NCBI GenBank assembly: GCA_030017475.1
Contig: JASEIO010000014.1
Location: forward strand, 1 to 34,852
Direction: 5' to 3'
Origin: a bacterium
GTDB lineage: Bacteria; UBA9089; JASEIO01
DNA length: 34,852 nt
Both the position numbers and the translations under genes were made by a program. The notes below the pieces were generated by a model. It was not told the origin of the DNA and made no database searches. It was given only the letters and a program-made list of their open reading frames with translations. Below, piece by piece: positions 11,718 to 16,799 of the stretch; the stretch's first letter is position 1, and the number at the start of each line of letters is the position of its first letter.

Positions 11718-12074
11718 GGTGGAGGCGGTGGGAATTGAACCCACGTCCGAACGTGCAAACACAAAGGTTTCTACATACATAGCCTATATTTTGAGTTCGC
11801 TCCTTCGGTCTCCTATAGGCAGGATACCAATGAAGCTAGCTTATTTCATTCTCACTACCCTTTACCTAAGCATGTAAAGAACAGCCAGCCTGTAACCCGT
11901 CATCCTTATTAGTCCCACAGGCAAAGACTAACAGAATGTGCCGCTTGGCTTAAGCAGCAAGAGCCAATTGAGTGTTGGCAGTTATTTTAGTTGCTGTTTT
12001 TTTAACGAGATAAACAGCTTTCTCGGTATGCCACACAATGCATCTGTACACCCTCGTCGAAACCTATCGCCCCC
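11718..12074 (-). ncRNA. ssrA: transfer-messenger RNA (tmRNA)
   Basis: About 357 nt. The 5' end GGGGGCG pairs with the 3' CGCCTCC, followed by discriminator A and CC. The last A is not encoded and must be added. The T-arm reads GGTTCAATTCCC and the tRNA-like D region TTTCGACGAGGG. The reading frame starts at GCA (11994) and gives the tag ATKITANTQLALAA, then TAA at 11950-11952, with the usual ALAA degradation end. tmRNA rescues stalled ribosomes together with SmpB, whose gene lies 27 nt upstream on the same strand. A TATAAA stands 5' to it, but no clear -35 box, so co-transcription with smpB is likely. Confidence 0.95.
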
Positions 12075-12101
12075 CTTTTATAGAAATTGGAAATCTAATC
12101 T

Positions 12102-12560
12102 CTATCTTCCTAATTTCCAATCCTTTATTGCCTTTTTCATTTCACGTACAGCTTCTCTTCTCTTTAATTCCTCCCGTATATCTCGAACCTTTTTCCCTTT
12201 AGCCAAACTAATCTCAAGCTTTGCTTTTCCCTTCTTAAAGTATACCTTCAAAGGAATAATAGAAAGTCCTTTCTCTTTTACCTTTCCGTACAGTCTATTG
12301 ATCTCTCGCCTTGTCAGGAGTAATTTCTTTCTTCTTTTTGGAGGATGATTAAACTGATTACCAAATCTATAGGGAGAGATATGCCAATTATAAACAAAAA
12401 TCTCTCCCTCCTCCACTCGAGCAAAGCTATCTTTTAGATCAGTATTGCCATTCCTTAAGGATTTAACTTCAGTTCCTAACAAAGAAACCCCTGCTTCATA
12501 GGTTTCTATAATCTCATATTCATGATAGGCTTTTTTATTCAAACAGGCTATCTTCTCCAT
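12102..12560 (-). CDS. smpB: tmRNA-binding protein SmpB
   Basis: A 152-residue protein, the usual length. Family signatures are NKKAYHEYEIIETYEAGVSLLGTEVKSLR, ISPY, RRKKLLLTRREI, GLSIIPLKVYFKKGKAKLEI (each read as parts) and the basic C-terminal tail KKVRDIREELKRRE that enters the mRNA channel. It carries alanyl-tmRNA to stalled ribosomes. The gene lies directly upstream of ssrA, the usual partnership. The ATG at 12560 lacks a Shine-Dalgarno sequence, but a -10 box ends only 5 nt before it, so the transcript is probably leaderless. Confidence 0.96.
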   Translation of the reverse strand: MEKIACLNKKAYHEYEIIETYEAGVSLLGTEVKSLRNGNTDLKDSFARVEEGEIFVYNWHISPYRFGNQFNHPPKRRKKLLLTRREINRLYGKVKEKGLSIIPLKVYFKKGKAKLEISLAKGKKVRDIREELKRREAVREMKKAIKDWKLGR

Positions 12561-12660: not shown

Positions 12661-12736
12661 TGGAGCGGAAGACGGGGATCGAACCCGCAACACTCGGCTT
12701 GGAAGGCCGATGCTCTTCCAATTGAGCTACTTCCGC
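12661..12736 (-). tRNA. tRNA-Gly (anticodon UCC)
   Basis: A 76-nt cloverleaf: acceptor GCGGAAG with CTTCCGC, D-stem GCTC/GAGC, anticodon loop CTTCCAA (TCC), T-loop TTCGATC, discriminator T and an encoded CCA. Its 5' end lies 1 nt from the stop codon of the receiver-GGDEF gene, so it is probably cut from the same transcript by RNase P. Confidence 0.97.
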
Positions 12737-12737
12737 T

Positions 12738-13667
12738 TCATTCCCTTCTTTCTTTTACATAAATACTTCCTTTATGTTGTTTGGCATATTTCTTTAATTC
12801 CGTAATAATCTCTGTTACTTGGGCATAATGGGTAAAATGCCTTTTCTCATTTGTAACACAGGAGATTGATATACTCATAATGGGAAATTTCTGAAGATTT
12901 CCCTGACGATCCAAGGATTCAATGTAGCCCCTTTTTCTATCCTTCTCATTATATCTTAAAGGGATTCTTTTATCAAACTCCGATATTATTTCACTACAAA
13001 TCTTATCTACCCTCGAGGGTGAAATAACTAAAATAAAATCATCTCCCCCGATATGACTTATGAAATCCCTTTTATCTCCGTACTCATCTAAGACCTTTAT
13101 AAGAACCTTGGCTATAAATCTTATAACCTCGTCTCCTTTATCATATCCATACTTATCATTATAGGCCTTGAAATTATCTACATCAAGTTGACATACAGCA
13201 AACCTTTCACCACTTGCCATCCTTTTTTTTATCTCCTCTTCTATCGACACATTTCCTGGTAATCCAGTTAATGGGGAGGTAGAGATCTTGTACCTCGTAC
13301 TTCTTAAAATACCCTCAATACGCGCCTCTAATTCTGCAAATATGAATGGCTTTGTTAAATAATCATCTGCCCCAACGCCTATTCCCGTAACCTTATCATT
13401 TACTTCATGTTTGGCTGTTATCATCACAATAGGTATTAAATGGGTTAATCTATTCTCTTTTAAACACTTACATACTTCATATCCAGAAATCCCTGGTAGC
13501 ATAACATCTAATAAGATTATATCTGGTCGCTCATCCATTGCCCTATCTATTGCCTCTCTACCTTCTCTAGCAACTATAACCTCATATCCCTTTGTATGCA
13601 AAACCTCTCTTAAAACAGTGGCTATATCCTCCTCATCATCAACCACTAAAATCTTTGTCTTTCCCAT
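12738..13667 (-). CDS. response regulator with GGDEF (diguanylate cyclase-like) output
   Basis: A 309-residue protein. The receiver domain (residues 3-122) has acidic residues D10, D11, phosphoacceptor D54, T84 and K106. The GGDEF domain (about 130-300) has LTGLPGN, LDVDNFKAYND (D162, N170), D179 and the signature GGDDF at 207-211. Asp replaces the catalytic Glu of GGDEF, so cyclic-di-GMP synthesis may be weak or lost. No RxxD inhibition site precedes the motif. It is the last gene of the module and the likely target of the kinase upstream. Its leader contains a GTGTAAATA-family repeat end that also supplies the purine-rich region before the ATG. The stop abuts tRNA-Gly. Confidence 0.9.
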   Translation of the reverse strand: MGKTKILVVDDEEDIATVLREVLHTKGYEVIVAREGREAIDRAMDERPDIILLDVMLPGISGYEVCKCLKENRLTHLIPIVMITAKHEVNDKVTGIGVGADDYLTKPFIFAELEARIEGILRSTRYKISTSPLTGLPGNVSIEEEIKKRMASGERFAVCQLDVDNFKAYNDKYGYDKGDEVIRFIAKVLIKVLDEYGDKRDFISHIGGDDFILVISPSRVDKICSEIISEFDKRIPLRYNEKDRKRGYIESLDRQGNLQKFPIMSISISCVTNEKRHFTHYAQVTEIITELKKYAKQHKGSIYVKERRE

Positions 13668-13718: not shown

Positions 13719-16700
13719 TTAGGCCCTACTAATTTGTTCCATAATCTTTTCAACCAATACATCTTGAGAAAAGGGTTTGGTTAGATATTCAGATGCCCCT
13801 AACTTTAAGGCAAGTGCCTTATCCTCTTCTAAGTCTCTTGCGGTTAAGGCAATAATTGGAATAGCGTTTGTTTCCTTATCTCTCTTTAGTTCCCTTATTA
13901 CCTTGAATCCGCTCATCTTTGGCATAATTAGATCTAAGAGGATTAATGCAGGCCTATTTCTTTTGGCTAATATAACTGCCTCTTCACCATCATAAGCAGA
14001 TACTACCATATAACCCTTTTTTGTCAATGCATCTTTTATAACCTCTACTACGCTAGGTTCATCATCCACTATTAAAATCCTCTTCTTGGTCTTGGCTTGA
14101 TCTAACCATGCCTCAATATTTCTTATTGATGAATAAAGGGCGTCAGAGGTTATTGGTTTCACTAAATAATCTGCTATTCCAAGACGTAGAACCTTCTCAT
14201 GATCCACATCCTCTACTATGGAAATAATTATGATAGGGATATCATGAGTTTCAGGATAGCCCTTAAGGGTTTCAATCACTTGAAATCCATCAACCTCTGG
14301 CATAAGTAGATCCAAGGTTATAATATCTGGTAGAAATTTAATTGCCTTTTCAATAGCCTCTTTCCCTGAATAGGCAGTAAACACCTCATAACCTTCTTTC
14401 TTTAGATAGGTCTCTATTACCTGGACCACATCCTGATCATTGTCAACCACCAGCACCTTTCTTATTTTATGCAATACCCTTCCCTCAGCCTCTACAGGTT
14501 CAATCTCTGTAATCCTTTTTTGTACTATCTCTTCTTCTTTTGTCTCCTTGGGTAATATAAAGCTAAACCTTGAACCCTTACCAATTTGAGATTCCTCTAC
14601 CCAAAGCTTCCCCTTGTGGGCTTCAACTATTGATCTACTTATGGATAAACCAAGCCCAATCGATTTACCAACAGAAGCCAATTCTTTATCTACTGGCTGG
14701 AACTTCTCAAATATCCGCTCAAAATTCTCAGGGGAAATACCAATCCCTGTATCCTTAACACTTACCTTTATATCTTTTTCTAAGGCTAATGCCTCAATAA
14801 AGATCTCTCCCTTTTCCTTTGTATATTTAATGGCGTTAGATAATAGATTTGCTATCACCTGTCTTATCCTATCTATATCCACTGAGATTTTTGGCAATTC
14901 ATGCGGCAAAGAGAGGTGTATTTTAATCCCCTTATCTTCCGCCAATCTCTTCATTTCTGTAATAGTTTCCTTAATAAAGGGGATTAAATCGACCTTCACT
15001 TTCCTCATTTCCACTCTACCTGCCTCTATCCTTGATAGATCTAATAGATCACTTATTAATCTAATCAACCTCTCTGTATTTGATTTAACAATCTCTAAAA
15101 ACCTTTTTTGCGATTGGGTCAACTCCCCTTCAACCCCAGCCAATAATAGGTCAACTGATCCCTTAATAGATGTTAATGGAGTGCGCAACTCATGAGAAAC
15201 ATTCGATACAAAATCTGACTTCATTTGTTCTATCTCCTTTATCCTCGAGATATCCCGAAAAATTGCCACCCCACCAATCACCTTTCCTTCTTCATTCTTT
15301 AATATGTTGGCAGAGACTGAAATAGGAATCCCTTTTCCATCCTTTCGAAAAATTCGCATCTCATAATTGGAGATTGGTTTATCAGTGCGCATGACTATCT
15401 CTAAAGGACACCCCTCTGTGCCTCTAAATACCTCACTGTGTGGCTTTCCTAACACCTCCGAACGACTGAAACCAGTCAATTCCTCTGCGGCATCATTAAA
15501 TAAGGTTATCTTTAAATCTCGATCTACTGTAAATACCGCATCATTCATACTGCGGACAATGGTATCGATCACACTATTTTTCTCTTGAGTTATGTGATTA
15601 ATCAGATAAGGTAGGCACATCTCAATCTCTGCCAGCCCCTGATAAACCGAGATAGCCTTCTCCCTACAGGTATTGTAACCACAAGCCCCGCAATCCAATT
15701 CATCTTCTGGACGGAGTTTATTAGTCTTTTTCAAGATGTCTCTAATCTCCTCCTCTGTAGGGGTGCGAAGAGGTATGAATCTATCCGAAAAATCTGTGGA
15801 TAGGTCTATTTTAACAGGCTCAATCACTTTTTTGTCACAAGACCTTACGTAGCTTAGCACCCTTTCCCTTCTGGCAAATAAGGATAAATCACTATCTACT
15901 CCTGGACCATCAATACATCCTTTACAAAAGGAGATTTCAAGAAACCGGGGGGATACCTTTTTGTTCACTAAATCATTCAAGACCTCTATACATTCTTCTC
16001 TTCCATTGATTACTACACATTCCTCTTCTTTTATCCATTTATTATTTGCCACAACCAACCGTGAGAGCCCCCCTTCTAAAGATATAAGAGAAGAGGTAGG
16101 GTCAAATGGGGGTGTATCAAATGAACCCTCATCTTGAGAATCAAAATCGATCTCCTTTTTCCTAAATAGTTCTTTTAATTCTTGAAATGTAAGCACTACA
16201 TCAGGATGTGTTTTAATTCCTTTCTCCCGTATCTCCTCCTTCTTTGCAACACAGGGTCCAATATAAACAATATGCGTTCCCTCCCCCACCCTTTTTTTAA
16301 TAGATAAGGTAGAGGCTATCATATGAGGGACCACTTTAAGTAAATATTTGATAAGTCCTGGATAGTACCTTTCGATTAGGCCGACAACCGCAGAGCAATT
16401 TGAGGCAATCATTATCCCCTCTTTTCTTTCTTCAATCAATCTTTTGTATTCATCAATCACTAAGTTTGCTCCATATCCTCCTTCTTCAACATAATCAAAC
16501 CCAAGAAGACGTAATGAAGTTACAAAAGAACCTACATTTCTGAAGGTGGCGACAAAAGAGGGAGAAAGGATTACTGCCTTCTTTCCCTTTTTCATCAATA
16601 ATTTTAAAACATGCCGAACATCATCCCTTACCCGCTTAGCCCCTTGCTTACACAATCTTACACAAACCCCACAGGATATACATCTCGTTGAAATGACCTG

Positions 16701-16799
16701 AGCCTGCCCCTCTTTTACCATAATTGCCTTAGCCGGACAATTCCTAACACAAACATAACACCTTTTACACTTCCCCCTTTCTGTCCATACAATTCCCAT
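13719..16799 (-). CDS. hydrogenase-like iron-sulfur sensor hybrid histidine kinase
   Basis: A 1026-residue fusion. Residues 11-50 bind two 4Fe-4S clusters (C11, C14, C17, C21 and C40, C43, C46, C50). Residues about 70-310 resemble the [FeFe]-hydrogenase large subunit: SNCSAVV replaces TSCCPAW (C135), GPCVAKK replaces MPCxxKK (C183), and FCKGCIDGPG holds C292 and C295. A further Fe-S domain uses C370, C373, C378 and C395. Then come PAS (about 410-520), HisKA with H536 in SHELRTP, an ATPase domain (N box NLLSNAIKYT, DTGIGIS, GLGLS), and two receivers (DLLMPEVDG, DLIMPKMSG). The layout resembles sensory [FeFe] hydrogenases (HydS type), but the proton-channel Cys is Asn and the last motif is one residue short, so H2 turnover is doubtful. 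It is likely a soluble redox or H2 sensor. Confidence 0.9.
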   Translation of the reverse strand: MGIVWTERGKCKRCYVCVRNCPAKAIMVKEGQAQVISTRCISCGVCVRLCKQGAKRVRDDVRHVLKLLMKKGKKAVILSPSFVATFRNVGSFVTSLRLLGFDYVEEGGYGANLVIDEYKRLIEERKEGIMIASNCSAVVGLIERYYPGLIKYLLKVVPHMIASTLSIKKRVGEGTHIVYIGPCVAKKEEIREKGIKTHPDVVLTFQELKELFRKKEIDFDSQDEGSFDTPPFDPTSSLISLEGGLSRLVVANNKWIKEEECVVINGREECIEVLNDLVNKKVSPRFLEISFCKGCIDGPGVDSDLSLFARRERVLSYVRSCDKKVIEPVKIDLSTDFSDRFIPLRTPTEEEIRDILKKTNKLRPEDELDCGACGYNTCREKAISVYQGLAEIEMCLPYLINHITQEKNSVIDTIVRSMNDAVFTVDRDLKITLFNDAAEELTGFSRSEVLGKPHSEVFRGTEGCPLEIVMRTDKPISNYEMRIFRKDGKGIPISVSANILKNEEGKVIGGVAIFRDISRIKEIEQMKSDFVSNVSHELRTPLTSIKGSVDLLLAGVEGELTQSQKRFLEIVKSNTERLIRLISDLLDLSRIEAGRVEMRKVKVDLIPFIKETITEMKRLAEDKGIKIHLSLPHELPKISVDIDRIRQVIANLLSNAIKYTKEKGEIFIEALALEKDIKVSVKDTGIGISPENFERIFEKFQPVDKELASVGKSIGLGLSISRSIVEAHKGKLWVEESQIGKGSRFSFILPKETKEEEIVQKRITEIEPVEAEGRVLHKIRKVLVVDNDQDVVQVIETYLKKEGYEVFTAYSGKEAIEKAIKFLPDIITLDLLMPEVDGFQVIETLKGYPETHDIPIIIISIVEDVDHEKVLRLGIADYLVKPITSDALYSSIRNIEAWLDQAKTKKRILIVDDEPSVVEVIKDALTKKGYMVVSAYDGEEAVILAKRNRPALILLDLIMPKMSGFKVIRELKRDKETNAIPIIALTARDLEEDKALALKLGASEYLTKPFSQDVLVEKIMEQISRA

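Follow-up and report, generated by a model that had tools for sequence, protein, structure and literature searches.

The hybrid histidine kinase encoded in the window, as we call the whole 34,852-nucleotide stretch of bacterial DNA analysed here, appears to be a group C homologue without the [2Fe] half of the H-cluster, that is, a pseudo-hydrogenase that probably acts as a redox sensor through its [4Fe-4S] clusters, and we hold this explanation with fair rather than strong confidence. Loss of the cofactor is pointed to by the combination of undetected HydE, HydF and HydG, the lack of any other [FeFe]-type protein in the genome, and altered residues at A230 and the relay position (CpI numbering), in a protein whose cluster ligands, domain order and kinase boxes are retained.

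Domain architecture of the window kinase

The kinase is encoded on the minus strand, which the preliminary description had not stated, by a single reading frame that starts with ATG and runs without an internal stop (Table 1). Pfam assigned the H-domain with 146.6 bits (Fe_hyd_lg_C, E 1.3e-42) and resolved the kinase core into HisKA (aa 526-594) and HATPase (aa 641-752) domains. The H-box, the N, G1, F and G2 boxes and the receiver Asp and Lys residues together identify it as a hybrid histidine kinase. In a 43-row alignment, 16/16 cluster cysteines were conserved. The preliminary description had listed four H-cluster cysteines, three further [4Fe-4S] sites and two receivers, all of which were recovered. 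An AlphaFold2 model of residues 1-403, built with 42 relatives, had a mean pLDDT of 93.1 and a pTM of 0.91, and every one of its top PDB matches was an [FeFe] hydrogenase, at about 19-24% identity and a TM-score, taken by query length, of about 0.65-0.73.

Table 1. Features of the window around the hybrid kinase gene
Feature	Residues or signature	Positions	Strand	Basis or remark
tmRNA gene	tag ANTQLALAA	11718-12074		directly beside smpB (region 11718-12560)
tRNA-Gly		12661-12736		
Receiver-GGDEF protein, downstream of kinase	309 aa; signature GGDDF	12738..13667	(-)	homologous neighbour in G004
Hybrid sensor kinase	1026 aa; 2x[4Fe-4S] - H-domain - C-terminal FeS - PAS - HisKA - HATPase - REC - REC	13719..16799	(-)	ORF + Pfam
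Two receiver domains	phosphoacceptors D830, D956; conserved Lys 881, 1008	13743..14454	(-)	Pfam
Histidine kinase core	aa 526-752; H536 in VSHELRTPL; N, G1, F, G2 boxes intact	14544..15224	(-)	Pfam
PAS domain	aa 412-518	15246..15566	(-)	Pfam
C-terminal FeS module PF04060	aa 368-397; C370-x2-C373-x4-C378-x16-C395	15609..15698	(-)	Pfam
[FeFe]-hydrogenase H-domain	aa 76-299; cubane ligands C135, C183, C292, C295	15903..16574	(-)	Pfam Fe_hyd_lg_C
N-terminal two-cluster ferredoxin module	aa 5-54; C11, C14, C17, C21, C40, C43, C46, C50	16638..16787	(-)	Pfam Fer4_10/Fer4_7; cysteines invariant
CheY-like single receiver, 15 bp upstream of kinase	120 aa	16815..17177	(-)	neighbour also in G003, G008

Aligned to CpI, the window kinase has A132 at T297, S133 at S298, N134 at C299, C135 at C300, G181 at M353 and S290 at M497, and its last motif reads C292-K-G-C295, a C-x2-C. 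This bears out the loss of the relay cysteine, the change of MPC to GPC and the shortened last motif to which attention had been drawn.

Placement in the kinase-linked group C family

On its sequence features, the window kinase is a homologue of the kinase-linked group C (HydS) sensory [FeFe]-hydrogenase family; we claim this homology for it and not the status of an H-cluster-bearing hydrogenase. It combines an H-domain holding the four cubane cysteines, two N-terminal [4Fe-4S] motifs, a C-terminal Cx2Cx4Cx16C motif and a fused signalling output (PAS, HisKA, HATPase and two receivers). Since Cx2Cx4Cx16C is the signature of group C and D sensory hydrogenases (PMC8163306), its presence supports a group C/D-type placement. 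Relatives matching all 395 N-terminal residues came from at least 80 named genome loci and several further genomes, and motifs were counted in 91 aligned relatives, the window kinase included, 90 of which could be scored at A230. In the tree, whose rows did not include TmHydS, the window kinase grouped with the FeS-kinase/PAS family and was separate from both the group A-type HydA and the group D-like rows. The proposed reading as a HydS-like sensory domain in a hybrid kinase is thus borne out by the domains, and in this tree the protein appears to sit inside the sensory family and not in a non-sensory group. Kinase-linked group C forms have been reported as C1 or C3.

TmHydS of Thermotoga maritima (group C/M2f), compared by its published residues alone, likewise has two N-terminal [4Fe-4S] motifs, the H-domain, a C-terminal Cx2Cx4Cx16C cluster and a PAS domain, and in both proteins the relay cysteine is lost, M353 is replaced by Gly and M497 by Ser; the relay residue, however, is Ala in TmHydS and Asn in the window kinase. 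The window kinase further differs from TmHydS and HydS in having Ser at A230, a C-x2-C last motif and a fused hybrid kinase with two receivers, and its genome differs from HydS systems in lacking HydEFG and another [FeFe] hydrogenase. TamHydS (group D, M2e), a putative sensor, shares the C-terminal four-cysteine cluster but has neither PAS nor kinase and carries Ser at M353 and Leu at M497, and the group D-like rows form a separate branch; group D identity was rejected because the window kinase has a PAS domain and G181 and S290 at these positions. Catalytic group A identity was rejected on N134, Y118, L154 and L121 at the CpI relay positions C299, E279, S319 and E282, on the lack of TSCCP, MPC and C-x3-C, and on an NCBIfam group A score of 97 bits against a cut-off of 406. 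Membership of group B1 was rejected as well.

Nar1/IOP1 of the CIA pathway has the H-domain fold and keeps the [4Fe-4S] site while [2Fe]H is absent (PMC12621388). It is a eukaryotic Fe-S trafficking factor without a kinase or a C-terminal FeS-PAS region, and serves here as a mechanistic analogy only; identity with it was rejected, as the window kinase is a kinase fusion in a bacterial genome and Nar1/IOP1 has a eukaryotic architecture with a CIA-pathway partner. Group C1 [FeFe] proteins with HATPase domains in Hydrogenedentota (PMC11406978) resemble the window kinase in their kinase-type output. Canonical H-cluster motifs were hardly found in them, and the authors questioned H2 sensing; the text makes no mention of HydEFG or HydG (PMC11406978). 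Many of these genes adjoin group A3 hydrogenases (PMC11406978), which the window gene does not.

The flagged motifs are mostly family traits

Counted across the 91 aligned relatives, the motif set is largely what kinase-linked group C proteins ordinarily show. GPC was found in 82 and C-x2-C in 63, against C-x3-C in 28, and the relay cysteine was kept in nine, the position being otherwise occupied by Thr (16), Ala (14), Ser (14), Asp (11), Pro (10), His (10), Asn (3), Phe (2) or Tyr (1); one further relative, uncovered there in the first alignment, proved to have His. The four cubane cysteines were invariant wherever covered. TmHydS, with Ala at the relay, Gly at M353 and Ser at M497, is still active (PMC10055695; PMC8163306), and the family counts together with this precedent (PMC10055695) led us to reject GPC or relay-cysteine loss as unusual. 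C-x2-C was likewise rejected as a sign of H-cluster loss, since 39 of the 63 proteins bearing it sit in HydG-positive genomes. The form of the last motif varies even inside the window's phylum, as the G004 relative (L020/L122) has FCQAGCPIDGP, with two extra residues amounting to C-x3-C plus an inserted Pro. The earlier suggestion that turnover has been lost therefore remains likely, but not for the motif reasons first given, these motifs being ordinary in the family; its basis is instead the genomic and pocket evidence set out below.

Maturases and other hydrogenases

A complete H-cluster requires HydE, HydF and HydG. The search for their genes that had been proposed detected none in the window genome, which is 98.5% complete: HydG was not found at E<=1e-3, HydE was not found at 1e-20, and HydF gave only sub-cut-off matches to its GTPase domain (104.8 bits against a cut-off of 325.6). 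Across a panel of 20 genomes, the three maturases were co-present in the same ten and co-absent from the other ten, showing that detection works. The window kinase is the sole Fe_hyd_lg_C protein of its genome, in which no [NiFe] large subunit was found either. The three other phylum members with the kinase (G003, G004, G008) gave the same picture, with no HydEFG and the kinase as sole Fe_hyd_lg_C protein, the four kinase-bearing genomes being 84-99% complete. Phylum members with HydG (G010, G013, G018) lack the kinase and have only ferredoxin-level matches to it. Beyond the phylum, the relative L041, with Asn at the relay, lies on a whole-chromosome Dehalococcoidales record (CP070842; G099) that has no HydG and no second [FeFe]-type protein; a simple assembly gap is thus unlikely to explain its missing HydG.

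The absence of HydEFG was nevertheless rejected as sole proof of cofactor loss. Genome G096 (99% complete) encodes a canonical HydABC with TSCCP and IMPC, yet HydE, HydF and HydG were undetected in it, and the same holds for G097 with its canonical HydA; G031, whose HydA lies on a 5.9-kb contig, is a weaker case. HydG was also undetected for 27/75 relatives with an intact pocket. On contig C2 of G096 (L123, 6321-10665), the canonical-looking HydABC adjoins a group C protein and a SpoIIE phosphatase.

Changes in the [2Fe] pocket across relatives

Pocket positions were read from the family alignment to CpI, with numbering from the PDB alignment; in the CpI structure these residues are known to line the CO/CN/adt pocket of the [2Fe] site. 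The window kinase has S79 at A230 and N134 at C299, as well as H159 at P324 and G107 at I268, and it keeps P231, S232, GPC and K358. On these residues, its alteration is at the mild end of the altered set, which counts against loss of the [2Fe] subsite in this protein.

A230 was replaced by Ser, Asp or Gly in exactly those 15 of the 90 scorable relatives that have Asn, His or Phe at C299, so that the two changes occur only together, and A230, P231, G353, P354 and K358 were invariant in the other 75. The cubane cysteines were kept in 15/15 altered relatives. A truncated G004 protein with His at the relay, in which A230 is not covered, is a sixteenth relative with Asn, His or Phe, outside the 90. 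Pockets were far more altered in a Desulfuromonadia-type set (L059, L078, L080, L082, L087, L092, L115, L116), which has Gly at 230, Cys or Thr at 231, a His relay, Ser at M353 with no Pro after it, Arg at M497, and no K358.

HydG was absent from 14/15 altered against 27/75 intact genomes (Fisher p 7e-5, not corrected for relatedness). The exception, L097, comes from a genome with other [FeFe] hydrogenases for HydG to serve. Replacements differ by clade (N/S, H/Y, H/R, F/L), and the best tree needs three or four changes for the altered set. However, a single altered clade was not rejected (AU test, p 0.455), so that the correlation between pocket and HydG may reflect one event, and an independent-pairs test of the two found just 2-3 pairs.

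A probable [4Fe-4S] sensor and its alternatives

With no maturases, the H-domain most likely holds only a cubane at the former H-cluster site. Apo-TamHydS made without HydEFG holds only this cubane (PMC8163306), and Nar1, without [2Fe]H, likewise keeps only the cubane at that site in eukaryotes (PMC12621388). In the mechanism we propose, the cubane of the H-domain would stand beside the three other [4Fe-4S] clusters, whose redox state would be set by low-potential carriers such as ferredoxin, or which would be damaged by oxidant. The change would travel by way of the C-terminal cluster and then the PAS domain to H536, which would hand it on to the kinase's own two receivers and probably also to the receiver and receiver-GGDEF proteins encoded on either side. 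That the C-terminal cluster is unresponsive to H2 in TamHydS (PMC13104023) weakens the idea of a simple redox wire running through it.

Alternatively, the kinase could truly sense H2, as a group C HydS that carries the full H-cluster; its maturases would then be absent from the assembly, too diverged to be detected, or replaced by another route. We regard this as rather unlikely, though it is consistent with the retention of all H-cluster cysteines, GPC and K358, with the activity of TmHydS despite Ala, Gly and Ser at the same three positions, and with G096 and G097. It is opposed by the lack of all three maturases in four related genomes and of HydG in a whole-chromosome record, by the lack in the window genome of another [FeFe] or detected [NiFe] hydrogenase to regulate, and by the fact that the A230 and relay changes are only found together.

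The pocket might also have been re-used, the cavity holding another cofactor or ligand that is sensed, such as a [2Fe-2S] cluster, or NO, CO or O2 at a site-differentiated cubane. Yeast Nar1 binds an extra [2Fe-2S] cluster that has been proposed to fill this cavity (PMC12621388), and N134, or the His, Tyr or Arg at pocket positions of relatives, are possible ligands. No conserved extra cysteine was found at the pocket positions examined, however, and the clade-specific replacements suggest relaxed constraint rather than a single new site, which makes re-use improbable in our view. That the protein is a decaying, non-functional fusion without a sensing role would fit the mild drift of the pocket, but is hardly credible given that no cluster cysteine and no kinase or receiver motif has been lost and that the gene and its receiver partner have kept their place in three genomes from two families.

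A possible wider [4Fe-4S]-only lineage

Returning to the pseudo-hydrogenase explanation, it may extend beyond the window: we see an even chance that the [2Fe] subsite was lost in a lineage of group C H-domains, which turned into a [4Fe-4S]-only sensor module feeding different outputs. In the window's phylum these outputs would be hybrid kinases, in Dehalococcoidia and two further bacteria simple kinases, and in Desulfuromonadia/Geobacteraceae sigma-54 activators. The relative L078 (8001-10298), from the cultured Oryzomonas japonica, has a strongly altered H-domain joined directly to a sigma-54 activator that carries a Fis-type HTH (HTH_8), with no kinase, in a genome without HydG. Present family definitions would class the proteins of such a lineage as H2-sensing hydrogenases, but what they sense may be the redox state of the cell. 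Genome surveys, PMC11406978 and PMC8542988 among them, read group C proteins as H2 sensors. Should an identifiable part of the family be unable to hold the H-cluster, that assignment would be mistaken in many genomes, and these proteins would illustrate how a catalytic metallo-domain turned into a plain Fe-S sensor in bacteria, in parallel to eukaryotic Nar1. The infrared signature expected of the H-cluster is all-or-none.

Gene neighbourhood and outputs

The CheY-like receiver, the kinase and the receiver-GGDEF protein likely form one operon, and the last of these, with its GGDDF signature, may be inactive as a diguanylate cyclase. In G003 and G008, where neighbour names come from reading their sequences, the receiver and kinase genes are followed by smpB, with grpE-dnaK-dnaJ nearby, as in the window. 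Three genomes from two families thus share the arrangement in which the kinase and its receiver partner lie upstream of smpB and grpE-dnaK-dnaJ, and the order kept in G003 and G008 argues for vertical inheritance and continued use of the kinase. None of the window gene's neighbours points to the signal. Redox flavoproteins are encoded near two altered relatives: the simple kinase of L041 (Dehalococcoidia) lies ahead of genes for an NtrC-type regulator and NuoE/NuoF-like proteins, and in L097 the order is kinase, receiver, regulator and NfnAB-like genes. In the window, genes for tRNA-Tyr and tRNA-Thr precede the receiver and kinase genes.
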